DNA of 38,750 nt from a virus. Where the stretch lies: IMG/VR virus record IMGVR_UViG_3300005613_000181, positions 1 through 38,750 of that record; one strand, 5' to 3'. Below the pieces are notes generated by a model. The model searched no databases and had not been told where the DNA came from. It saw only the letters and a list, made by a program, of their open reading frames with translations. Shown here piece after piece: positions 12,176 to 38,126 of this stretch. The stretch's first letter is position 1; every line of letters begins with the position of its first letter. The position numbers were made by a program, and so were the translations under genes.

Positions 12176-13165
12176 ATGACAATTGATATAAATACGACAT
12201 TCATAGGTGGTTATGTAAGTGACACGATGAGTTATTCGGATGCTGCTAACTTCACTAATGGCATACCTTCCGATACAAATGATATAGCTGTTTCTGCTAG
12301 TGCTAGATATGGTATACGAGCTTATGATGATTCTTCCACTAATATTAATTCCTTTAACATTAATAATGGGCATACTAAATCAATCGGTTCAGATGTTAAT
12401 GGGGTAGCTCAGTACCTACAGTTATCCTTTAGTGATGCAACTGATGGTGAATTAAATTTATCAGGCTCAGGGACTACATACATTGAGTCTAACTATGCGA
12501 AAGCTATTAATGTCAACAACGCAGGGTCAGGCGTGGAATCTACAGATACCCCTTCTACTTATCTCACAGGCGAGGGAAACATTTCTACCCTAGTCCAATG
12601 TGAAGATGGTATTGTAGGGTTAGGTTGGCGTGAAGAAGAAGTATTTGAAACCGATGAGCTTAAAGTGAATGCTGGAACAGTTTTAATTGGTCGTAAAGCT
12701 ACAAAAACTGATGGCAGTTCACCTATAGAAGTTACAATAAACAATGGTGTAATTAAATCTAAATCCAGCTTGAAACTTATTGATGGTAATGGTGGCAAAG
12801 TAATTATGCTTGATGGTGATTTATCCCAGATGGATGCGGAAAACACAATGGTTTATATGTACAATGATGGGACTATAACTGATGGTTATATAGGCTTAAC
12901 AGGTGGTCTCGATCTAGAAACAGGTAATGGGGAGATACAAATAAATAGCGATTTAGTTTATGAGGGAGGTTATATTAGAGACCTTTATGAAAGAATAAGC
13001 GATGTCACTATTTATTCATCCAGTGGTATTAACGATACCACTAACATTAGGATGGGTATTGACAGAAAGTTTGCCATAGAAAATGTAAGTGATTCAGTAG
13101 TGTCTTCAAATGAAGATGGTAAAGGTGTAACGATCACTGTTTACAAAATGAAAACTTCAAACTAA
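12176..13165 (+). CDS. Putative tail fibre with beta-solenoid-like repeats
   Basis: The 329-aa protein starts after AGGAG. Residues about 30-230 show irregular repeats of short beta strands with Asn/Gly/Ser turns (SFNINNGHTKSIG, GELNLSGSGTTYIES, VTINNGVIKSKSSLKL, GKVIMLDGDLSQMD), the pattern of right-handed beta-helix fibres and spikes. It begins TIDINTTFIGG and ends with a compact acidic/basic segment. As the last gene of the late block it is the likely adsorption fibre. Its stop overlaps the convergent sigma gene by four bases. No catalytic depolymerase motif is evident. Confidence 0.5.
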   Translation: MTIDINTTFIGGYVSDTMSYSDAANFTNGIPSDTNDIAVSASARYGIRAYDDSSTNINSFNINNGHTKSIGSDVNGVAQYLQLSFSDATDGELNLSGSGTTYIESNYAKAINVNNAGSGVESTDTPSTYLTGEGNISTLVQCEDGIVGLGWREEEVFETDELKVNAGTVLIGRKATKTDGSSPIEVTINNGVIKSKSSLKLIDGNGGKVIMLDGDLSQMDAENTMVYMYNDGTITDGYIGLTGGLDLETGNGEIQINSDLVYEGGYIRDLYERISDVTIYSSSGINDTTNIRMGIDRKFAIENVSDSVVSSNEDGKGVTITVYKMKTSN

Positions 13166-13620
13166 TCAAACACCTTTTTAACTTCATTGCAAACTTTCTG
13201 AAATTTATGGGAGTTCATTCCAAGCTTTTCACGGATGAACTCCCTTCTTTTTTTGCATCCTCTTATCTCTGGCATTTGTCCTGAATTAATGTAATGGAAG
13301 ACTGCCTCAGTGTCATTAGATAAAGCTTTACCTATTACCTCTTCTTCCACAAAAGGCTCCCATTCACTTTCAATTGGAGTTGTCTGTTTTTTATACGCAT
13401 TGTTTAATAATTTTACATACCTACGTATAAGACAAGTGATAAAGAATGTGGTAAAACTAACCTGCTTACTATTATCAAACTTCTCCAAAACATTATAATA
13501 GATAATATAACCTTCACTTACTAGATCATCCTTATCATATATTGAATTCTGGGGGAACTTAATGATGAATTTGTTAGCGTAGCAATTAATGATACCTCTC
13601 ACATCTTTATCACTTATCAT
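13162..13620 (-). CDS. Sigma-70-like RNA polymerase sigma factor
   Basis: The 152-aa product has a recognisable sigma region 2: IYDKDDLVSEGYIIYYNVLEKFDNS, then VSFTTFFITCLIRRYVKLLNNAYKK, matching the DL-x-xEG and F-x-T-x2-xxxIRR core that binds the beta' clamp helices and melts the -10 box. The C-terminal part (KKRREFIREKLGMNSHKFQKVC) may be a reduced region 4-like helix-turn-helix, but it is short. AAGGA precedes the start. As the last gene of the leftward early operon it is well placed to switch transcription to late promoters. The GTGTATTCTT motif is a candidate target. The final third carries the late terminator on the opposite strand. Confidence 0.72.
   Translation of the reverse strand: MISDKDVRGIINCYANKFIIKFPQNSIYDKDDLVSEGYIIYYNVLEKFDNSKQVSFTTFFITCLIRRYVKLLNNAYKKQTTPIESEWEPFVEEEVIGKALSNDTEAVFHYINSGQMPEIRGCKKRREFIREKLGMNSHKFQKVCNEVKKVFD
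13209..13254 (+). terminator. Rho-independent terminator of the late operon
   Basis: Perfect 10-bp arms GGGAGTTCAT (13209-13218) and ATGAACTCCC (13235-13244) enclose a 16-nt loop and are followed by TTC and seven T residues (13248-13254). It lies 44 bp after the fibre stop codon and points rightward. On the other strand no T-run follows, so it should act only on rightward transcripts. It is embedded in the 3' coding part of the convergent sigma gene. Confidence 0.82.
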
Positions 13621-20025: not shown

Positions 20026-22542
20026 ATGGATTCTTTATTTAATTTAGAAGATTATGAATTTAAGCGACCTAGGAAAGTTTTAGGATGCTCAAATTGCTTA
20101 CTTAAAGGTAAGATAGCTCAGTCTAATGTTAAGACTGTGGGAAAGGGTAAGAAGAAGATTGCCATCATCTTTGAGAAACCATCAATGGATTATTCTGAAC
20201 CTTACAATGATGACCAGTACAGAATCTTTCTAAGAGGACTAGAGCTTTCAGGTATTGACATGTTAGAGGATTGTAAGATATTCAATCTTGTAAGATGTTC
20301 AGTGAAACCTGAAAGGGTACCTACTAAATCTGTTATTGATGCTTGCTCTTACTACCTTAATAAAGAACTTAAAGAATTTGAACCTGAGTTTATCATAGCG
20401 GTAGGTGATGAGGTGATTAATTATCTTACTTATGAGTATGATAATAGAGTAAGTTCTTTTAGGATGTTTGGAAGGGTTCTTCCAAGAAGAGAGGATTATC
20501 CCCCTATTGGTTGTATATATGATGCTGATAAATTTATTGGCAATCGTTCTATGGATATTAATTACTTTAATAAGGCTATCAAAAAGTTTGTTAATTATAT
20601 AAATAAAGATGATAAAGAAATAAAGAAACTCAACAGAAACGATTATAAACTGGTCAAGACAGAAGAAGATTTCAAAGAGATGGAAGAGGTTGTTTATAGT
20701 GGTAAACCTGTTGCGTTTGATTATGAAACTAACAGCAAGGAACCTTTTTCTGATGGAGCCAAAATACTGACAGCGGCTTTTGCTGTGGAGGAAGGATTTG
20801 GTTATTGTCTTCCTATCGACCATCCTGATTTTACATGGAAGGATAGAGATAATAAAGTTCAGTGGCTGAAGGATTGGCTTCAGAGTGATATCGAAAAGTA
20901 TATACAGAATTGGAGTTTTGAGGAACAATGGTCAAGGCATATTTTAGGGGTAAACATTAATAATGTTACCCTAGATACGATGGTGCTTCAACATCTGGTT
21001 GATAATAGACCTCACGTATGTGGACAGGATTTTCAGATTTTTGTACGGTATGGTGATTGTTATAAGAACATGGTTGATCAAGCTAAACTTGAGGAAACCG
21101 ATATTAATCTTGTAGCTCAATATAATGTAATGGATGTACGTTATCTTATCAAGTGGGCTGAGGACTTGATGAAAGAGGCTTCAAGATTTAAGGGACTGAT
21201 GAAGGCTTATCAACTCTTTCATGATATGATCCCTATATTTTGTGAGATGACAAGTAATGGCATGAAGATAGATGAAGATGAACTGGATAAGCTTGAAAAA
21301 GATACTAAAGATAAGATTGATGAATATGAAGAGATACTCACAAGCTCTAAGTTTGTGACTGAATATGAAACCAAGTATAAAACTACATATGAGAATAAAC
21401 CTAATGACAATAGATGTCTCTTTTTTGATATAATGGGATTAACACCATCAAGTTTAACTGATTCTGCCCACAAAAAGAAAGATAATGACCCAAATTATGA
21501 GGTAGATTTTCTGGATTATAAAGTTGATAAAGAAACATTGAATGAATCTTTGAATGGTATTAAAAAGAATTCTGATAAGTATAAATTTGTTGATGCTTAT
21601 TTGAATCTTCAGAAGTATAAGAAACTTTATTCTACATATATTAAAGGGATCAAAAAATGTATCATCAATGGTTTTATTCATCCTTCATTTTTACTACATA
21701 CAGCAAGTAGTCTTCGTGGTAGTAGTGCAGGCCCTAACTTTCAGAATATCCCAGCACATGATAAAATCACATCGTCTGTGAGGACAACGATGAAACCTAC
21801 AAATGATTATATCATGCAGATTGACTACGGTGCAAATGAAGTCAAGTATATAGCGGCTCTGTCTGGTGATGAGAATCTTATTCGTGAATGTAATGAGGGC
21901 ATTGATTTCCATAAGTATTTTGTAGCAAAAATTCTGAAAAAGGATATAAAGGATATAACCAAAGAAGAAAGATTTAAGGGTAAGAATGGATTTGTATTCC
22001 CTACTTTCTATGGAAGTAATTCTCGTGTTATCGCTAAGAAACAGAAGTGGCCGGAGGTTTCAGTTAAAAGAGTAGAAGGTGAATTCTGGAAACACTACAA
22101 ACAGGTAAGACAGCATAATGAGGAAATGGAGTTAGCGTATAAACGTGACATGTACCTTACCTCGCCTTTAGGTTTCTATTTTGTGTGGGGTGTTTCAGGC
22201 CCATTACGTAAAGAGAATATCTATAACACTAGAGTACAGGCTACTGCATTTCATCGGTTACTTAAAGCTATTAAAGATATACATCACGAGTATAATAACT
22301 CAGATGAATTTAAGGGTTTTAAGAGTAAGATGATGGGCCAGATTCATGACTGCTTGGTATGGGATATCAAAGAAGAAGAGATAGTGCCTATCGCTAAGAT
22401 GTGTTATAAGCATATGACAAGTCTTGACGTATTTGGTGATTGGGATTCCGCTGTAAGTAAAGAAGTGGAGTTTGAGATTAATGATGATTTTACTGAAGGT
22501 GAAGAATATAGTTTTTCAGAAATAATTGAAAAATTTTCATAA
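20026..22542 (+). CDS. Family A DNA polymerase with UDG-like N-terminal domain and 3'-5' exonuclease
   Basis: The 838-aa polymerase has three parts. Residues 1-190 look like the uracil-DNA-glycosylase-fold domain found in SPO1-type phage polymerases (LGCSNCLLKG, IAIIFEKPSMDYSEPY, FIIAVGDEVINYL). Residues 225-400 are a DnaQ-like proofreading exonuclease: FDYET (D232, E234), NWSFEEQWS and YNVMDVRYL. The polymerase core has motif A QIDYGANEVKYIAALS (D600), motif B-like FKGKNGFVFPTFYGS, and motif C GQIHDCLVWD (D775), where the common HDE reads HDC. It is the replicative enzyme. The last 129 bp of the gene lie within a perfect 220-bp direct repeat, but the reading frame is intact. Confidence 0.9.
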   Translation: MDSLFNLEDYEFKRPRKVLGCSNCLLKGKIAQSNVKTVGKGKKKIAIIFEKPSMDYSEPYNDDQYRIFLRGLELSGIDMLEDCKIFNLVRCSVKPERVPTKSVIDACSYYLNKELKEFEPEFIIAVGDEVINYLTYEYDNRVSSFRMFGRVLPRREDYPPIGCIYDADKFIGNRSMDINYFNKAIKKFVNYINKDDKEIKKLNRNDYKLVKTEEDFKEMEEVVYSGKPVAFDYETNSKEPFSDGAKILTAAFAVEEGFGYCLPIDHPDFTWKDRDNKVQWLKDWLQSDIEKYIQNWSFEEQWSRHILGVNINNVTLDTMVLQHLVDNRPHVCGQDFQIFVRYGDCYKNMVDQAKLEETDINLVAQYNVMDVRYLIKWAEDLMKEASRFKGLMKAYQLFHDMIPIFCEMTSNGMKIDEDELDKLEKDTKDKIDEYEEILTSSKFVTEYETKYKTTYENKPNDNRCLFFDIMGLTPSSLTDSAHKKKDNDPNYEVDFLDYKVDKETLNESLNGIKKNSDKYKFVDAYLNLQKYKKLYSTYIKGIKKCIINGFIHPSFLLHTASSLRGSSAGPNFQNIPAHDKITSSVRTTMKPTNDYIMQIDYGANEVKYIAALSGDENLIRECNEGIDFHKYFVAKILKKDIKDITKEERFKGKNGFVFPTFYGSNSRVIAKKQKWPEVSVKRVEGEFWKHYKQVRQHNEEMELAYKRDMYLTSPLGFYFVWGVSGPLRKENIYNTRVQATAFHRLLKAIKDIHHEYNNSDEFKGFKSKMMGQIHDCLVWDIKEEEIVPIAKMCYKHMTSLDVFGDWDSAVSKEVEFEINDDFTEGEEYSFSEIIEKFS

Positions 22543-22707: not shown

Positions 22708-23748
22708 ATGGAAAACCTACTAATAAACGGAGATAATGTAAAAGGCTTAAAATACCTTTTAGAAGATTGTAATCTTAAAGGCAAGGTTGATTTGTGTTAT
22801 ATTGACCCCCCATTTGCAACAAATTGTAATTTTACAATTACAAATGGTAGAGCTTCGACAATAAGTAATTCAAGAAATGGAAATATTGCTTATTCCGACA
22901 AATTAACTGGCTCAGAATTTATTGCATTTCTTAAAGAAAGATTAATGATTGTAAGGGAATTATTGTCTGACAAAGGTTCGATGTATTTACATATTGATTA
23001 CAAGATTGGTCATTATGTAAAAGTAATGATGGATGATATTTTTGGTATTGAAAACTTCAGGAATGACATTACACGCATAAAATGTAATCCTAAAAATTTC
23101 AAAAGAACTGGATATGGCAATATAAAAGATTTAATTTTATTTTACTCAAAAGGCTCCAAACCTATATGGAATGAACCCAAAGAACCATATACGGAAAAAG
23201 ACTTAGAAAGGTTATTTAAAAAAGATAAAAATGGTAGGCAATATACCACTGTTCCAATTCATGCACCTGGGGAAACAATTAACGGAAAATCTAATCAGCC
23301 CTTTAAGGGTATGATGCCTCCAGATGGGCGACACTGGAGAACTGATGTTGAGACTTTAGAACAATGGGATAATGATGGGTTAATTGAATGGTCTAACACA
23401 GGTAATCCGAGAAAAATTATCTTTGCAGACGAAAAAGATGGCAAGAGGGTTCAAGATGTTTGGGAATACAAAGACCCTCAATATCCAACTTACCCAACAG
23501 AAAAAAATCAAGATGTTTTAGATTTAATAATTAAAACATCATCGAACAAGGGGAGTATTGTTTTAGATTGTTTTTGTGGTTCTGGTACTACATTAAAATC
23601 TGCACACTCATTAGAGCGTTATTGGATAGGGATTGACCAATCTGAAATAGCTATAAAAGCAACTATAAAAAAAATAGAAAGCATTAAAGGAGACTTATTT
23701 GTCCCTAAACCAGAATTTACAATCATAAATTTAAAAAAAAATGTATAA
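22708..23748 (+). CDS. DNA methyltransferase (DPPF type) on an integron-like cassette
   Basis: This 346-aa amino-methyltransferase has the catalytic motif IDPPFAT (33-36) near the N-terminus and the AdoMet-binding FxGxG-type motif DCFCGSGTTLKSA near residue 290, the beta-type order. Motif-like VLDCFCGSGTT and YWIGIDQSE are typical of type II/III adenine or N4-cytosine enzymes. The region between, with WNEPKEPYTEKDLERLF and DGRHWRTDVETLEQWD, probably recognises DNA. No restriction gene accompanies it, so protection of phage DNA from host restriction is likely. AGGG lies six bases before the ATG. Its stop codon is inside the attC R'' core, as is usual for integron gene cassettes. Confidence 0.85.
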   Translation: MENLLINGDNVKGLKYLLEDCNLKGKVDLCYIDPPFATNCNFTITNGRASTISNSRNGNIAYSDKLTGSEFIAFLKERLMIVRELLSDKGSMYLHIDYKIGHYVKVMMDDIFGIENFRNDITRIKCNPKNFKRTGYGNIKDLILFYSKGSKPIWNEPKEPYTEKDLERLFKKDKNGRQYTTVPIHAPGETINGKSNQPFKGMMPPDGRHWRTDVETLEQWDNDGLIEWSNTGNPRKIIFADEKDGKRVQDVWEYKDPQYPTYPTEKNQDVLDLIIKTSSNKGSIVLDCFCGSGTTLKSAHSLERYWIGIDQSEIAIKATIKKIESIKGDLFVPKPEFTIINLKKNV

Positions 23749-27926: not shown

Positions 27927-28997
27927 ATGATAAAGTCGATCCGTCTTAAAAATTATGGGCCGTATAGAGATGAAACTTTAGAACTCTCACCAACCTTCAC
28001 GGCCATTATTGGAGCATCTGATGAGGGTAAATCTATGCTTGTACGTTCTATTGAGTGGGTACGTACTAATCGGCCTTTAGGTGACAAGTTTATTCGTCGA
28101 GGTACAAGTGATTCAGAGGTAACTATTACTACTGATACTGATACCGTGAAAAGATTCAAAGGTAAAAAAGGTAATGGATACCAGTACAATGATGAAGAAC
28201 CTGATACATCCATTCAGTCTGATGTTCCTGATCGAGTTTTTGATATACTTAAGATGAGTGATTTGAATGTACAGAAACAGTTTGATAATCACTTTCTTGT
28301 TTTCGATACTTCTGGTAAAGTAGGTAAGAAGTTAAATGAGATAATACATTTGGAGGCTTCAACGGAAGTAGGGGATAAGATTAGGTCACAGATACGTTCA
28401 ATGAATAGCGAATTAAAAGCTCACGAGATAAATAAGAATGACAAAGAATCTGAGCTTAAAAAGTATGAAGGATTTGATGAGATAACTTCTTTGGTAGAAA
28501 AGCTTGAAGAGTATGATAGCCAGAGAGAAGAAGTAGCAAATTCACTTAACCAAATAGAAGACTATATAGAAAAACTTAAAACAATAGAAGAGTCAAAAGA
28601 TTGTTTAGATTTTGGTAAAGTACTGTCCATTATTGATAAACTAGTAGGTGTATTGAATGATATTAAGGAATTGGAAAGTTATATATCCCAGATCGAAAAC
28701 TATATCTCTGCTATAGAGGATTTGAAGGTTTCTTACGATGGAAGCAAGCCTAAGAAGTTTATAGATGAACTAATTAAATTGCATATCTCAATAGATGAGT
28801 ATACGAATGAGATAGATACTATTGAGAACTATATAGAAGAGATAGAAACTTCAAATAAAGGGATTAAAAGTATAATTAAAGAGATAAAAACACTACGTAA
28901 AGACTATAATAAAGGTATAGAGAGTATTGAAACTTGCCCCACTTGTGGACAGGATATAGATACTGAACATAGATCAATTGTCTTGGAGAATTTATAA
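27927..28997 (+). CDS. SbcC/Rad50-like N-terminal half with zinc hook
   Basis: The 356-aa protein starts like SbcC/gp46: MIKSIRLKNYGPYRDETLEL, Walker A GASDEGKS (29-36), then a long coiled coil (about 140-330). It stops right after a zinc-hook CPTCGQDID (C337, C340). The Walker B and ABC signature needed for ATP hydrolysis are absent here but present in the gene at 30885. It therefore encodes only the N-terminal ATPase lobe, one coil strand and hook of a Rad50-type protein. The stop overlaps the SbcD start by one base. Confidence 0.82.
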   Translation: MIKSIRLKNYGPYRDETLELSPTFTAIIGASDEGKSMLVRSIEWVRTNRPLGDKFIRRGTSDSEVTITTDTDTVKRFKGKKGNGYQYNDEEPDTSIQSDVPDRVFDILKMSDLNVQKQFDNHFLVFDTSGKVGKKLNEIIHLEASTEVGDKIRSQIRSMNSELKAHEINKNDKESELKKYEGFDEITSLVEKLEEYDSQREEVANSLNQIEDYIEKLKTIEESKDCLDFGKVLSIIDKLVGVLNDIKELESYISQIENYISAIEDLKVSYDGSKPKKFIDELIKLHISIDEYTNEIDTIENYIEEIETSNKGIKSIIKEIKTLRKDYNKGIESIETCPTCGQDIDTEHRSIVLENL

Positions 28998-29896
28998 TGA
29001 AGTTTCTTTTAATGGGTGATGCTCATTTAAGAATAACACCGCCTGTAGCAAGAAAGGAGAAAGACTTTTCAAGTGTGTGCTTGAATAAGTTTAAGTCTGC
29101 TGTTAAATTAGCAGTAGACGAAGAAGCGGAACTTGTACAGGTAGGGGACTTGTTTGATTCTTCAAGACCTTCTTATTATATTGTAGGCGAGTTGTATAAG
29201 ATACTTACTAAGTACAACAAAAAGCTCTATACCATATTTGGTAACCATGACCAGCTTTATCACTCTTCAAAAAATAACAAGAGTTCAGCTCAAAAGATGC
29301 TGACTGATTGTGGTTGTCTCCATATACTAAATGAAGACCCCGTAGTATTAGGTGATTATGAATTGTATGGACAGAGTTGGGGTGAGGAAGTTCCAGTACC
29401 TAATGACAATGATAAAAAGAAGATGCTTGTATCTCACCAGATGGTTGGTGTTGATAAGGTTTTCGACACACAAAAACTTTTACATCCTACAGAGTTTATA
29501 AAAGAACATAAAGGATTTGACATACATGCGGTAGGTCATTATCATTTTCAGTTCATCTATGGGGATTCACCTATTGTCATTAATCCGGGTTGTTTATTGA
29601 GGTTACGTAACATTGAAATGGAACGTAAACGAAAACCTGAAGTAGTTATTTATGACGAGGGTGATATAGAGATAGTAGAGCTTCCACATGACCCTGAACC
29701 TTTTGTAGAAAAAATTAATAAAGTAAAAAAGGATAGTAAGATCAATGAGCTTATAAACGAGCTTAAGTTAGATAATAAAACAGGAATCAATTTCAATGAT
29801 TCACTTGACATTATTTACAGTAGAAATAAAACATCACAAAAAGTTAAAAAGATAATATCTACTTATATGGGAGAAGTTAATGAAACCCTTAAATAA
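28997..29896 (+). CDS. SbcD/Mre11-like nuclease subunit
   Basis: The 299-aa metallophosphoesterase has the Mre11 motifs in order: LLMGDAHLR (D-x-H), VQVGDLFD (GD-x-x-D), IFGNHDQLY (GNHD), VSHQM and VGHYHF (GHxH). It processes DNA ends with the SbcC-like ATPase encoded in two parts around it. Translation is coupled to the N-terminal SbcC half (TAATG). A Lys-rich C-terminal extension of about 70 residues could dock on the coiled coil. Confidence 0.88.
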   Translation: MKFLLMGDAHLRITPPVARKEKDFSSVCLNKFKSAVKLAVDEEAELVQVGDLFDSSRPSYYIVGELYKILTKYNKKLYTIFGNHDQLYHSSKNNKSSAQKMLTDCGCLHILNEDPVVLGDYELYGQSWGEEVPVPNDNDKKKMLVSHQMVGVDKVFDTQKLLHPTEFIKEHKGFDIHAVGHYHFQFIYGDSPIVINPGCLLRLRNIEMERKRKPEVVIYDEGDIEIVELPHDPEPFVEKINKVKKDSKINELINELKLDNKTGINFNDSLDIIYSRNKTSQKVKKIISTYMGEVNETLK

Positions 29897-30398
29897 GTAT
29901 TATCAGATATTTAATGCTTCAACAGATAAGATTCAAAATGCAATGGAGCCTCTTGACACTGATATCTATCACAATAAACTAGCTACAATCGAGCTCAACA
30001 AATTTACATCCATTGTAGAGATTTATGATGATATTGTGAATAGCTGGTTAAGTATGATTGATAAAAGATTGGCTATAGTTATTGAACGTCTATCAATCTT
30101 AAAAGCTAAACCTAAATTGTTGCAATGGTTTTATAAATTTGAGATTAAAAAGTTAGAAGACCAGTATGAGAGGTATTGCAAATTAGGTGGATATCGTTAC
30201 CCTAAAAAAGCTGTGACTGTGATTTTAGATGTATTGAAAGATATAGTTAAATCGTCAGGTGCTGAAATAGGTTTATCAAATATAGAGTTAATTGAAAAAG
30301 AAAGTACAAAAGAAAAACGTACTTACTTAATTGAAGGATGGCATTATCATGTACCAGTTTGGAAACACAATATAAGTATTGAGGATAATTATGAATAA
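29880..30398 (+). CDS. Unknown helical protein (172 aa)
   Basis: A start at 29880 overlaps the SbcD stop, with GGGAG upstream. The protein is mostly helical and basic in its middle (IERLSILKAKPKLLQWFYKFEIKKLEDQ), with a beta-rich C-terminus (YLIEGWHYHVPVW). It was not recognised. Located between SbcD and the C-terminal SbcC half, it may be part of the complex, or an insertion that split an ancestral SbcC gene. Confidence 0.55.
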   Translation: MKPLNKYYQIFNASTDKIQNAMEPLDTDIYHNKLATIELNKFTSIVEIYDDIVNSWLSMIDKRLAIVIERLSILKAKPKLLQWFYKFEIKKLEDQYERYCKLGGYRYPKKAVTVILDVLKDIVKSSGAEIGLSNIELIEKESTKEKRTYLIEGWHYHVPVWKHNISIEDNYE

Positions 30399-30672
30399 CA
30401 AAATTTCAGAGCATATTGATATGATTACACGTTTATTTCTAAGAGGCATCGAGTTTGGACTTGTGATGTTAGGTTTAACTTTATGCGGGCAAACTAAATT
30501 AACAAATTGCTTTTTCATTCTATGGTTTTTAGTTTGTTTCATGATATACGGTGGACTTAATTTTTTATATGTATTCATGGTTAAACGGGATATTAACAAG
30601 TTGTTACGTGACTTAGATGATACTTTATTATCACAATTAGGAGAGGAACCAGAGGATGAAAAGCTTAAGTGA
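30391..30672 (+). CDS. Small two-pass membrane protein (93 aa)
   Basis: ATG 30391 fits GAGG (30381-30384). TTG 30379 would be unspaced. Two hydrophobic segments (IEFGLVMLGLTLCG and CFFILWFLVCFMIYGGLNFLY) are followed by a charged tail (KRDINKLLRDLDD). Holin-like topology is possible, but its place inside the recombination operon suggests a different, unknown role such as membrane tethering. Confidence 0.5.
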   Translation: MNNKISEHIDMITRLFLRGIEFGLVMLGLTLCGQTKLTNCFFILWFLVCFMIYGGLNFLYVFMVKRDINKLLRDLDDTLLSQLGEEPEDEKLK

Positions 30673-30904
30673 CCTTAAGGAAAAGAAGGCAGAAATAGAG
30701 CAACGTGAGAAAGAAGAACAGCAGAGGAAAGGAAAACAAGAAGCCCTGATGGAAGAGATCAAAAGAAATACTGGAGCCTCAACTTTAGATGAACTTCAAA
30801 GTTTACTTGAAGATAATGAAGAGAAAATCAAATCATTGAATGAGTTGTGTGCTAAGATAGAAGCTAAACTGGAGAATGCTTTAGATGAAACAGAAACTTC
30901 TTGA
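30656..30904 (+). CDS. Short coiled-coil protein (82 aa)
   Basis: Almost pure coiled coil (LKEKKAEIEQREKEEQQRKG, LLEDNEEKIKSLNELCAKIE). It overlaps both neighbours. Directly before the C-terminal SbcC half, it could contribute a coil strand to the split Rad50-like protein. Alone it shows no catalytic feature. Confidence 0.55.
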   Translation: MKSLSDLKEKKAEIEQREKEEQQRKGKQEALMEEIKRNTGASTLDELQSLLEDNEEKIKSLNELCAKIEAKLENALDETETS

Positions 30905-31487
30905 AAGATATAATAAGAAACTCTACACCAAAGAGTTGATTGAGAAAGACATTGAAAATTCTACTAATTCCATAAAAAAGATTGCAGAAGATATCAATGT
31001 GCATAAAGAGGCTGAGGAAGTAATCAATGCCGCTATTTTAATTACTCAAGAAGGAACCAAGGAATTTATCGAGTCAATCGTAACAAAAGCTCTACAAATA
31101 GTTTATGATGACTCTTATTCTTTTGTAATGGAATTTAATATAAAAAGAAACCAGACTGAGATAACTTTATTAGTTCAACAGGAAGATCAATTATATGAAT
31201 TAAACCAGTTAGGTGGAGGTGTGAGTGATGTAGTTTCTTTAGCTTTAAGGCTTGCTTTTTATGCCCTTACCGATTATAATAAGAGTAATGTGTTTGTGTT
31301 AGACGAAGTAGGAAGGAACTTAGGCCAGAAGAGGATTAAGTTTGGAGAGATGATGAAGGAACTCTCTGAGTGCTTAGGTTTACAGTTGATTGTAGTTACC
31401 CATAGTGGTGACATAGCAGGACAGGCCGATAGAATTTATGAGATAGAACATAAGAATGGCTTGTCAAAAATAAACCCATTACAATAA
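30885..31487 (+). CDS. SbcC/Rad50-like C-terminal ATPase half
   Basis: The 200-aa protein has a coiled N-terminal half, then the ABC signature region LNQLGGGVSDVVSLALRLA, Walker B VFVLDEVGRNLG and the H-loop VVTHSGDI: the C-terminal lobe of an SMC/Rad50 ATPase. It has no Walker A. That motif is in the separate gene at 27927. The two must pair to form a working ATP site with SbcD between them in the operon. It overlaps the coiled-coil gene upstream by 20 bases. Confidence 0.83.
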   Translation: MKQKLLERYNKKLYTKELIEKDIENSTNSIKKIAEDINVHKEAEEVINAAILITQEGTKEFIESIVTKALQIVYDDSYSFVMEFNIKRNQTEITLLVQQEDQLYELNQLGGGVSDVVSLALRLAFYALTDYNKSNVFVLDEVGRNLGQKRIKFGEMMKELSECLGLQLIVVTHSGDIAGQADRIYEIEHKNGLSKINPLQ

Positions 31488-34805: not shown

Positions 34806-35051
34806 ATGATTTTTAAGGCTAAGAGTAATTGGAAGTATTTGACTTATGATGCAGATGGTTTTGTTCTTCATTCAACCAAACCGTCTTATGATTTTAATGA
34901 TTCAGTTTGGAAAACAAAAAATGATTATTGCCTTGGTTGGGTAACTTGTTTTCTTACACCAAGGCCTAGTGATAATTTCAGTAAGAATATATGGATATGG
35001 GAAAAGAAGTGGGTAAGGATTAAAGGAGATACTAATGAGAGGAAAGGGTAA
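34806..35051 (+). CDS. Unknown small protein (81 aa)
   Basis: A start at 34806 follows AAGGAG. Aromatic-rich and beta-like (SNWKYLTYDADGFVLHSTKP, SKNIWIWEKKWVRIKGD). No membrane span. It overlaps the lysozyme gene start by 17 bases. Function unrecognised. Confidence 0.5.
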   Translation: MIFKAKSNWKYLTYDADGFVLHSTKPSYDFNDSVWKTKNDYCLGWVTCFLTPRPSDNFSKNIWIWEKKWVRIKGDTNERKG

Positions 35052-35565
35052 TATTTTTATTGTTATCGTGTTTTTTATTGCAGGGTTTTTGTATGGATTG
35101 ATAGCTACTGAATACTCGAATACACAATATGTTGAGAAACTTTTAATAAACAAAGAACCCATACCTGTTAAAGCCCCTACTATAGAAATTATAAAGGAAC
35201 ATGAAACTGTTATGAAGAGTTTAATTACAGAGAATTTATTGTTCTACGCCATATCTGAGGTAGAGAGTAATCATGATGATAAGGCTGTGGGAGATGGAGG
35301 CGCATCTAAAGGTCGTTATCAGATAGGTAAAGCATATTGGCAAGATGCGTGTGAGTTTGGTGGATTTGATTATGATTACGATAAGAATGTAAAGAACCCT
35401 CTTATCTGTAAACTTATTATGAAGACTTATTGGGAACGCTACGGAGCGAAAACACCTGAAGAGAAATGCAGGATGCACAATGGAGGCCCTGATGGTCATA
35501 CACAAGATTGCACCTTACCTTATTGGGCTAAGATAAAGAAAGTTCTTAGCAAAGAAATGAAGTAG
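35035..35565 (+). CDS. Membrane-anchored i-type (destabilase-like) lysozyme, endolysin
   Basis: The start follows AAAGGAG (35022-35028). Residues 7-24 (IFIVIVFFIAGFLYGLIA) are an N-terminal signal-anchor, possibly a SAR-type signal. The catalytic domain matches invertebrate-type lysozymes: ISEVESNHDDKAVGD (E77 and D87 at the catalytic positions), KGRYQIGKAYWQDA, MKTYWERYGA, CRMHNGGPDG and LPYWAKIKKV, the same order as in animal i-type enzymes (ES, G-x-x-QIK-x-YWxDC, HNGGPNG, YW). It should cleave peptidoglycan glycan strands at lysis. There are only four cysteines, far fewer than in animal homologues. As the phage's only lytic enzyme in view it is the likely endolysin. Confidence 0.75.
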   Translation: MRGKGNIFIVIVFFIAGFLYGLIATEYSNTQYVEKLLINKEPIPVKAPTIEIIKEHETVMKSLITENLLFYAISEVESNHDDKAVGDGGASKGRYQIGKAYWQDACEFGGFDYDYDKNVKNPLICKLIMKTYWERYGAKTPEEKCRMHNGGPDGHTQDCTLPYWAKIKKVLSKEMK

Positions 35566-35661: not shown

Positions 35662-35820
35662 ATGAAAGTAATCAAAGTGACCAAAGAGTATTTCCAGACA
35701 GAGGACGAGAAGGTTTATTTCTTCGAGCCTTTGGAAAAAGAAATATCCATTGAGGATATGCAGAAGATTGTGGATGCAAACGAGAAATTAGTTAAGGAGT
35801 TGAAAGATGTCAAAGATTGA
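35662..35820 (+). CDS. Small leader ORF before methyltransferase cluster (52 aa)
   Basis: ATG 35662 follows AGGAG (35650-35654). The acidic/basic helical product begins MKVIKVTKEYFQTEDEKVYF and ends VDANEKLVKELKDVKD. Its last 14 codons contain the ribosome binding site and start of the following methyltransferase. The same 43-bp segment recurs, slightly changed, before the second methyltransferase. It was not recognised as a family. It may mainly serve as a translational leader. Confidence 0.6.
   Translation: MKVIKVTKEYFQTEDEKVYFFEPLEKEISIEDMQKIVDANEKLVKELKDVKD
35767..35809 (+). repeat. 43-bp leader repeat, copy 1
   Basis: It matches 36553-36595 at 41 of 43 positions. It covers the end of the leader ORF plus AAGGAG and the ATG of the first methyltransferase of the cluster. 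CAGAAG precedes both copies. Confidence 0.92.
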
Positions 35821-36535
35821 GCTGATACAAGGCGATTGTTTGGAGAAGATGAAAGATATTCCTGATGGGAGTATAGATATGGTCTTTACATCGCCCCCTT
35901 ACAATATGAACCTTCGTATTAGAAATGGGAAACATTGTTCCAGGCAAATAGTAAAAGAATTATCAACAAAATATGAAGGTTTTGATGATAACTTGCCAAT
36001 GGAAGATTATTACAATTTTAATGTTGCCGTGATTTCAGAACTGTTAAGAGTTTCTAATTTGATATTTTTTAATGTCCAATTCCTCACTGGAAATAAAAGT
36101 GCCTTGTATAAACTAATCGGATACTACCACGATAAAATTAAGGAATTTATCGTATGGGATAAGATCAATGCACAGCCCGCTATTGGTGAAAAAGTGTTAA
36201 ATAGTAGGTTTGAAGTGATATTGGTATTCCAAAATACCAACCCAGAATCAAGAAAATTTGATACAGCTCAATTTGAGCGTGGGACTTTGCAAAACTTATG
36301 GCAAATCAAAAGAGGTGCAAAAGTTGATAAATCTCACGGGGCGACATTTCCCAGTGAATTAGTTGAATTAGCTATCAAAAACTTCTCTCCTGTAGGAGCG
36401 ACCATACTTGACCCATTTATGGGAACAGGAACGGTTGGTGTCGTTTGTAAAAATACCCATAGAAATTTCGTAGGGATTGAAATGTTATCAAACTATTTTG
36501 AAATAGCAGAGAAGCGAATAAATGAAAATCCATAA
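35807..36535 (+). CDS. DNA methyltransferase 1 of cluster (SPPY type)
   Basis: The 242-aa enzyme has the catalytic FTSPPYNMN (near residue 30) and AdoMet-binding DPFMGTGTVGVVC (about 198) in the beta order. SPPY is typical of N4-cytosine methyltransferases, though N6-adenine enzymes also use it. Flanking conserved segments are FIVWDKINAQPAIG, FEVILVFQNTN and FVGIEMLSNYFEIAEKRI. Its 5' end resembles that of the third enzyme in the cluster (KIEL-x-GDCLE-MKDIPDGS). No restriction partner is visible. It overlaps the leader ORF in another frame and is flanked by the 43-bp repeat. Confidence 0.85.
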   Translation: MSKIELIQGDCLEKMKDIPDGSIDMVFTSPPYNMNLRIRNGKHCSRQIVKELSTKYEGFDDNLPMEDYYNFNVAVISELLRVSNLIFFNVQFLTGNKSALYKLIGYYHDKIKEFIVWDKINAQPAIGEKVLNSRFEVILVFQNTNPESRKFDTAQFERGTLQNLWQIKRGAKVDKSHGATFPSELVELAIKNFSPVGATILDPFMGTGTVGVVCKNTHRNFVGIEMLSNYFEIAEKRINENP

Positions 36536-36552
36536 AAGCACAGAAGCAAGTG

Positions 36553-36595
36553 ATTGTGGATGCAAACGATAAATTAGTTAAGGAGATGAAAGATG
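36553..36595 (+). repeat. 43-bp leader repeat, copy 2
   Basis: Imperfect copy of 35767-35809, ending on the ATG of the second methyltransferase and providing its AAGGAG. The original reading frame persists as a fragment (VDANDKLVKEMKD) without a start codon, so this is a duplicated remnant. Confidence 0.9.
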
Positions 36596-37360
36596 GAATT
36601 AAATAAAATCTACAATGAGAATTGTCTTGATACTATGGCAAGGATGCCAGATGGATTTATTGATTTAACAGTAACAAGTCCACCTTATGATAATCTAAGA
36701 ACATACAACGGTTCGCTTGTATGGAATGAATCAATCTGGAAAGCGATAATAAAAGAGCTTTATCGTGTGACAAAGAAAGGTGGTGTTGTGGTTTGGGTTG
36801 TTGGTGATTCTACGCAAAAAGGAAGTGAAACAGGAACGAGTTTTAAGCAAGCATTATTTGCTATGAAGTGTGGGTTTAATATGCACGACACTATGATTTA
36901 TCAAAAAAGCACTCCACCATTAACGCATAACAGATATGAGCAAAACTTTGAATATATGTTTGTTTGGAGTAAAGGAAAACCAAATACATTTAACGGATTA
37001 AGAGAGCCGAGAGAATATACAGACAACCGAAAAAGCAAAGCATTTGGTAGAAACAAAGATAATAGTGTTGACTTTGGTTACTCTACGCAAAACGAAACAA
37101 GGTTAAAACGCAATGTATGGAAATACTTTGCAGGTGGTGGAGCAAATGACAAGATAGCAAGTAAGCACCCTGCAATATTCCCTGAACAACTTGCACAAGA
37201 CCACATATTAAGCTGGAGCAATGAAGGAGATTTAGTTTATGACCCATTTATGGGAAGTGGGACTACTGCTAAAATGAGCATTCTAAATAAGCGTAATTGG
37301 ATAGGGAGTGAAATATCAGAAGAATACTGTGAAATTGCAGAGAAGCGGATAAAGGAGTAA
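36593..37360 (+). CDS. DNA methyltransferase 2 of cluster (SPPY type)
   Basis: The 255-aa enzyme has VTSPPYDNLRTY (about residue 30), GGVVVWVVGD, MIYQKSTPPLTHNRYEQNFEYMF-like motif X region, and DPFMGSGTTAKM (about 220), ending EYCEIAEKRIKE. Beta-class amino-methyltransferase; specificity unknown. The start codon and ribosome binding site come from the second copy of the leader repeat. The next methyltransferase starts five bases after its stop. Confidence 0.85.
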   Translation: MELNKIYNENCLDTMARMPDGFIDLTVTSPPYDNLRTYNGSLVWNESIWKAIIKELYRVTKKGGVVVWVVGDSTQKGSETGTSFKQALFAMKCGFNMHDTMIYQKSTPPLTHNRYEQNFEYMFVWSKGKPNTFNGLREPREYTDNRKSKAFGRNKDNSVDFGYSTQNETRLKRNVWKYFAGGGANDKIASKHPAIFPEQLAQDHILSWSNEGDLVYDPFMGSGTTAKMSILNKRNWIGSEISEEYCEIAEKRIKE

Positions 37361-37364
37361 TAAT

Positions 37365-38126
37365 ATGCCAAAGATTGAATTACATTGTGGCGATTGCCTT
37401 GAAATTATGAAGGATATTCCAGATGGAAGCGTGGATGCAATTATCACAGATCCGCCGTACGGGACGACGAAGTGCCGATGGGATTCAGTTATACCGTTTG
37501 GGCCAATGTGGGAACAGTTGAATAGAATTATTAAACCAAACGGGGCTATTGTTTTATTTGGTAGTGAGCCGTTCAGTAGTGCTTTGAGAATGAGCAACGT
37601 CAAGATGTTCAAATATGATTGGATTTGGGAGAAAACAAAAGCAACGGGACACCTTAATGCAAAAAAGATGCCTATGAAAGCACACGAAAATATTCTTGTG
37701 TTTTACAAAAAACTTCCAACCTATAATCCGCAAAAGACAACAGGTCACAAACCTGTGAATAGTTACACTAAAAGTGTTAAAGACGGTACTGCTGATGGTG
37801 AAGTATACGGAAAAACAGGTGTTGTTAGCGGTGGTGGTAATACTGATAGATACCCAAGAAGTCTGCAGACTTTTGCAAGTGATACCCAAAAGAGTAAGCT
37901 ACACCCCACCCAAAAGCCCGTCGCCCTGATGGAGTACCTCATCAAGACCTACACCAACGAGGGCGAGACAGTTCTGGACTTTACAATGGGAAGTGGCACT
38001 ACAGGGTTAGCTTGTAAAAACTTGAATAGGGGTTTTATCGGTATCGAAATGGATGACAAGTATTTTGAAATAGCAAAGAAGCGTATTGAGCAAGCGAGGC
38101 AGGATATCGAGCAAAATATGTTTTAG
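37365..38126 (+). CDS. DNA methyltransferase 3 of cluster (DPPY type), mosaic composition
   Basis: The 253-aa enzyme has ITDPPYGTTKCRWDS near residue 30, GAIVLFGSEPFSS, a KTKATGHLNAKKMPMKAHENILVFYKK-type recognition region, HPTQKPVALMEYLI, and motif I DFTMGSGTTGLAC (about 205). DPPY suggests N6-adenine methylation. Two blocks, about 37448-37485 and 37897-37980, are strikingly GC-rich and use GCC/CTC/GAG/GGC codons, while the rest is AT-rich. Both coincide with conserved motifs, pointing to intragenic recombination with a homologue from a GC-rich genome. Confidence 0.86.
   Translation: MPKIELHCGDCLEIMKDIPDGSVDAIITDPPYGTTKCRWDSVIPFGPMWEQLNRIIKPNGAIVLFGSEPFSSALRMSNVKMFKYDWIWEKTKATGHLNAKKMPMKAHENILVFYKKLPTYNPQKTTGHKPVNSYTKSVKDGTADGEVYGKTGVVSGGGNTDRYPRSLQTFASDTQKSKLHPTQKPVALMEYLIKTYTNEGETVLDFTMGSGTTGLACKNLNRGFIGIEMDDKYFEIAKKRIEQARQDIEQNMF

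Follow-up and report, generated by a model that had tools for sequence, protein, structure and literature searches.

Lysozymes of the i-type have been described mainly from invertebrates. Phage copies have so far been merely database names, and the gene reported here brings an uncharacterised family of phage lysozymes to attention. A recent lysin database files 'destabilase' under the miscellaneous domains of predicted lysins, possibly as a wrong annotation (PMC13237592). The reference active site of the GH22i family comprises Glu18, Asp30, Ser35 and Gln40, with 6.26 Å between the carboxyls of the Glu and the Asp (PMC2976769), and leech destabilase has in addition the isopeptidase residues Ser49 and His112, as well as 14 Cys (PMC10126035). 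We analysed a stretch of viral DNA of 38,750 nucleotides (IMG/VR record IMGVR_UViG_3300005613_000181, positions 1-38,750; hereafter the window), which encodes a 176-residue protein whose numbering is used throughout. This protein is probably a membrane-anchored i-type muramidase (Destabilase, GH22i) serving as the endolysin of its phage.

Family assignment and active site

Profile, sequence and fold comparisons all support the placement of the window protein in the i-type lysozyme family. Its sole Pfam match at E ≤ 10 was PF05497 (Destabilase), which scored 26.8 bits (curated cut-off 26.2 bits; E = 6.5e-6) over profile positions 7-115 of 116, and scans against PHROGs and NCBIfam gave no informative match. 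A single-sequence search of the PDB retrieved leech destabilase (E = 2.5e-9) and three bivalve i-type lysozymes (~1e-4), with a c-type lysozyme next at 0.59. When a profile of 38 relatives was used, leech destabilase reached E = 3.6e-25 and the bivalve enzymes 2e-17 to 6e-17, and the lytic transglycosylases MltE and MltC scored far lower (1.5e-4 to 4e-3). An AlphaFold model built on these relatives had a mean pLDDT (predicted local distance difference test) of 89, with values of ~98 across most of the catalytic domain. Its top six Foldseek matches in the PDB were i-type lysozymes (E 2.9e-6 to 3.7e-4, target template modelling (TM) scores 0.72-0.77), and transglycosylases appeared only from E ~0.01. 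An earlier note on this DNA, made by a model from the letters alone, had proposed the i-type fold and named a Destabilase profile search and structure prediction as checks; both bear it out, and no other lysozyme clan gave the best match. As judged from sequence, the similarity to i-type lysozymes is well above chance and the protein belongs to a prokaryotic and viral branch outside the animal subgroup, because its domain has four Cys (106, 125, 145 and 159) versus many in animals (all 14 of leech destabilase being in disulfides). Thus, the description 'Cys-poor' in that note was fair.

In the profile alignment, E77, S91 and Q96 correspond to Glu18, Ser35 and Gln40 of GH22i and D87 probably to Asp30, and the catalytic E77 aligns with Glu18 of the Tapes enzyme and Glu34 of the leech enzyme. 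The column of S91 is occupied by Ala in 62 of the 73 distinct viral domains compared. The open reading frame (ORF) and the residues quoted in the earlier note are real, with E77, D87, GRYQIGKAYWQDA (93-105) and CRMHNGGPDG (145-154) found where it had placed them; its 'final YW' exists as Y163-W164, but is followed by 12 more residues and is not the terminal pair. Leech Ser49 has no clear counterpart in the window protein, although His112 corresponds to H148 in the alignment, and therefore fibrin-type isopeptidase activity is not expected.

The N-terminal segment and spacer

The segment at residues 7-24 (IFIVIVFFIAGFLYGLIA) contains 13 F/I/L/V and four Gly/Ala among its 18 residues, and no other of the 79 family members reaches its Kyte-Doolittle mean of 2.84. 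The domains of signal-anchor-release (SAR) endolysins are weakly hydrophobic and contain small residues (PMC9239132). Measured in the same way, the SAR domain of phage P1 Lyz has a mean of 2.21 with eight Gly/Ala and six F/I/L/V, and its summed insertion energy on the biological scale is -0.06 compared with -3.62 for the window segment. Spacers were compared for proteins with reliably called starts (L004, whose start is probably miscalled, was set aside). The distance to the catalytic Glu is 52 residues in the window protein, 56 in the viral relative L069 and 66 in L026/L027, which are the three strongest membrane segments, versus ~10-32 residues in members with signal peptides. Across the family, the same domain occurs with no leader, with a signal peptide or with an anchor, as classified from hydropathy. 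Because the domain is found behind such differing leaders, export appears to be modular, with N-termini that may be interchangeable.

These data bear on how the enzyme is held or released. The earlier note had proposed a SAR or signal-anchor mode, in which the segment would keep the enzyme inactive in the membrane until depolarisation freed and activated it. A single hydrophobic segment after a short basic N-terminus, giving N-terminal signal-anchor topology, would suit this mode, and the Gly/Ala-containing segment that the note described is indeed present after two basic residues, but with merely four Gly/Ala. Since the segment is far more hydrophobic than that of P1 Lyz, is not the weakly hydrophobic, small-residue-rich sequence expected of a SAR endolysin, and lacks a cysteine of the P1 Lyz type, SAR release is not supported and we consider it very unlikely. 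Cleavage by signal peptidase near A24, leaving a mature lysozyme free beyond the inner membrane as probably happens in many relatives, deserves some weight, although it is still an unlikely outcome. Short typical signal peptides are present in many relatives (e.g. L008, L036, L039 and those of Cellulophaga phages) and LIA/T is an acceptable cleavage site; however, the hydrophobic segments of these relatives are shorter and weaker, the spacer of the window protein is several-fold longer than theirs, and the model shows a single unbroken helix over residues 5-38. A permanent anchor fits the N-terminus better than a SAR domain, and a cleaved signal peptide is less likely than an anchor. To reach the wall, a tethered enzyme would require a long spacer such as this one.

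The coordinates of the gene and its parts are listed in Table 1. The lysozyme ORF has a good ribosome-binding site and overlaps the preceding 81-codon ORF by 17 bases. An internal start at M61 (ATG 35215), which would give a domain-only product like those of some relatives, was rejected because its ribosome-binding site is badly spaced.

Table 1. Features of the lysozyme gene in the window
Feature	Position	Strand	Remarks
Gene for i-type lysozyme, predicted membrane-anchored	35035..35565	+	ORF with ATG start, 176 residues; ribosome-binding site; PF05497 over residues 72-169
Ribosome-binding site region	35021..35031	+	AAAGGAG, few bases 5' of ATG 35035
N-terminal transmembrane segment	35053..35106	+	residues 7-24; strong hydrophobicity; R2 and K4 before the segment
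Spacer from membrane segment to enzyme	35107..35238	+	residues 25-68 (~44 residues); model confidence lower here
Catalytic domain of i-type lysozyme	35239..35562	+	residues 69-176; E77, D87, S91, Q96, HNGGP motif

Genomic setting and proposed role in lysis

The fold family, the catalytic E77 with its probable partner D87, the strong membrane segment and the spacer are supported by the comparisons above. In the mechanism that we propose, the N-terminal segment would direct the lysozyme through the export machinery of the host and retain it as a permanent anchor in the inner membrane, while the catalytic domain would face away from the cytoplasm on its spacer. There, E77 as the acid and D87 as the base or nucleophile would cut the glycan strands of peptidoglycan by hydrolysis, and this cutting would occur at the end of infection, making the lysozyme the endolysin. 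It is the best candidate for this role, because the scanned window proteins yielded no further lytic domain. Its gene lies between two glycosyltransferase genes upstream and a run of DNA methyltransferase genes downstream, outside the block of tail genes, which makes a role in the virion unlikely.

Several observations weigh against this interpretation. The PF05497 score exceeds its cut-off by merely 0.6 bits, a thin margin that led to the further independent tests of the family. The equivalence of D87 to Asp30 (Tapes) and Asp46 (leech) requires a one-residue gap in the profile alignment, because the Asp-bearing loop lacks one residue of its animal counterpart, and MAFFT sets D87 one column off. 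The positions of E77, D87 and Q96 and the E-D spacing are constant in 73 of 73 distinct viral domains, but this invariance is partly built in, since the patterns used for retrieving relatives from IMG/VR contain the E or D motif. Signal peptidase may cleave after A24. Neither beside the gene nor elsewhere in the window could a holin or spanin be identified with confidence, and the holin candidates at 975-1232, 2401-2664 and 30379-30672 gave no significant profile match. Finally, the record is a fragment: it has no end repeats, and a portal, a major capsid protein and a large terminase were not recognised in the window, so that it may lack a further lysis gene. As no holin or spanin is firm and the genome is a fragment, we infer an endolysin function and regard it as plausible; the 'phage endolysin' of the earlier note thus holds as an i-type enzyme and best endolysin candidate, with the lysis role itself proposed from context. 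The candidate at 975-1232 encodes 85 residues that include hydrophobic stretches as well as a charged tail, and its product may be a holin.

A peptidoglycan enzyme might also act outside host lysis, for example in wall or capsule remodelling or in phage exclusion. Its glycosyltransferase and methyltransferase neighbours, which form no recognisable lysis cassette, would suit such a task, as would the finding that no holin partner is conserved among small membrane proteins encoded next to the lysozyme, either in the window or at 22 loci of relatives. However, no second lytic domain turned up among the scanned window proteins and the gene stands apart from the tail genes, and we rate a role outside lysis as unlikely. 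A different chemistry would apply if the protein were an SLT-type lytic transglycosylase instead of a hydrolase. Of the 38 aligned relatives, 34 hit the Destabilase profile and 31 hit SLT (PF01464) as well; moreover, MltE and MltC lie within reach of the family profile, and L069, an anchored relative, is recognised by SLT but not by Destabilase. For the window protein itself, no SLT match was listed even at E ≤ 10; it also keeps the HNGGP...YW end and probably the GH22i Asp, and its model has i-type lysozymes as the best structural matches, which makes a transglycosylase improbable. Hence, the anchored i-type muramidase acting in lysis is the reading that we prefer.

Other genes of the window include a family A DNA polymerase (20026-22542; PF00476 at residues 503-821) with an N-terminal uracil-DNA-glycosylase-like domain (PF03167 at residues 42-137). 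An SbcC/Rad50-like protein is apparently split into two ORFs (27927-28997 and 30885-31487), with a CPTCG zinc-hook motif at the end of the N-terminal half and an FVLDE motif in the C-terminal half; the two are separated by an SbcD-like phosphoesterase (28997-29896) and small ORFs. Three N6/N4 DNA methyltransferase genes stand side by side at 35807-38126, with a fourth at 22708-23748, and a phage-encoded sigma-70 region 2 protein is found at 13162-13620 on the minus strand. Positions 1-852, which encode a Laminin_G_3 protein, have a G+C content of 51% versus 35% in the remainder, suggesting a recent acquisition or an assembly join.

Relatives, origin and known systems

A scan of IMG/VR viral contigs with the window protein alone gave no matches, and a three-sequence alignment was therefore used, which found 91 viral relatives, of which 80 were kept. 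The viral domains have mostly one to four Cys. Bacterial copies are rare (3 of 199 genomes in the phylum of a planctomycetal assembly), and no sister phages emerged when the glycosyltransferase, DNA polymerase and small terminase-like proteins were used as queries. The earlier note had called a Cys-poor i-type endolysin unusual for a phage; this was only partly right, given at least 80 relatives on viral contigs and phage copies already named destabilase. The window lysozyme is not unique and is a real member of a poorly studied family of phage enzymes.

Matches to both Destabilase and SLT within this family are consistent with a shared ancestry of the i-type and SLT enzymes, and phage i-type lysozymes form a bridge to lytic transglycosylases in profile space. 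In a tree of viral, animal and planctomycetal sequences (117 columns), the animal sequences cluster, but their joining point has a support of 31/82, and 22 of the 47 branches are weak. Because this point is poorly supported, the direction of transfer is not shown, and the tree does not bear out the hint of the earlier note that the enzyme may inform on the origin of the family. The relative L069 (4770-5288) has the same anchor-plus-spacer architecture as the window protein with an SLT domain replacing the i-type domain, a possible intermediate. It is a speculative and rather doubtful proposal that Cys-poor phage and bacterial i-type lysozymes are the old stock of the Cys-rich animal enzymes, linking them to SLT, and that some phages lyse their hosts by a spacer-borne lysozyme tethered to the inner membrane. 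Phage destabilases appear to be genuine i-type lysozymes, widespread in environmental viruses and probably equipped with exchangeable export modules.

Among known systems, SLT lytic transglycosylases (MltE, MltC and Slt70) share the superfamily fold, the catalytic Glu and the GxxQ and NxGP motifs, but have neither the Asp arrangement of i-type enzymes nor the HNGGP...YW end, and score much lower. Destabilase of the leech Hirudo medicinalis (PDB 8bbu, 8bbw) has a similar fold with 32% identity (target-normalised TM 0.73-0.77), Glu34 matched by E77 and probably Asp46 by D87, and the HNGGP motif in common. It differs in its Cys content, in an active-site loop one residue longer and in Ser49, whereas the N-terminal membrane anchor and spacer are features of the window protein. 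The lysozyme of Cellulophaga phages Calle_1 and phi38:1 (Calle1_55, Pervagoviridae), annotated as 'lysozyme (Destabilise-like protein)', is likewise phage-encoded, shows ~35% identity over residues 72-173 and keeps E/D/Q and HNGG; however, it has a signal peptide and a short spacer in place of an anchor, and a weak SLT match without a PF05497 match. The second-best viral structural match, the Destabilase A0A6J5P067 (UniProt; BFVD) of an uncultured Caudovirales phage, is shorter (135 residues) with 38% identity over 108 columns. Although their spacer sequence is unrelated and their gene neighbourhood is different, L026/L027 from IMG/VR resemble the window protein in having a strong membrane segment at the N-terminus, then a long spacer and a PF05497 domain.
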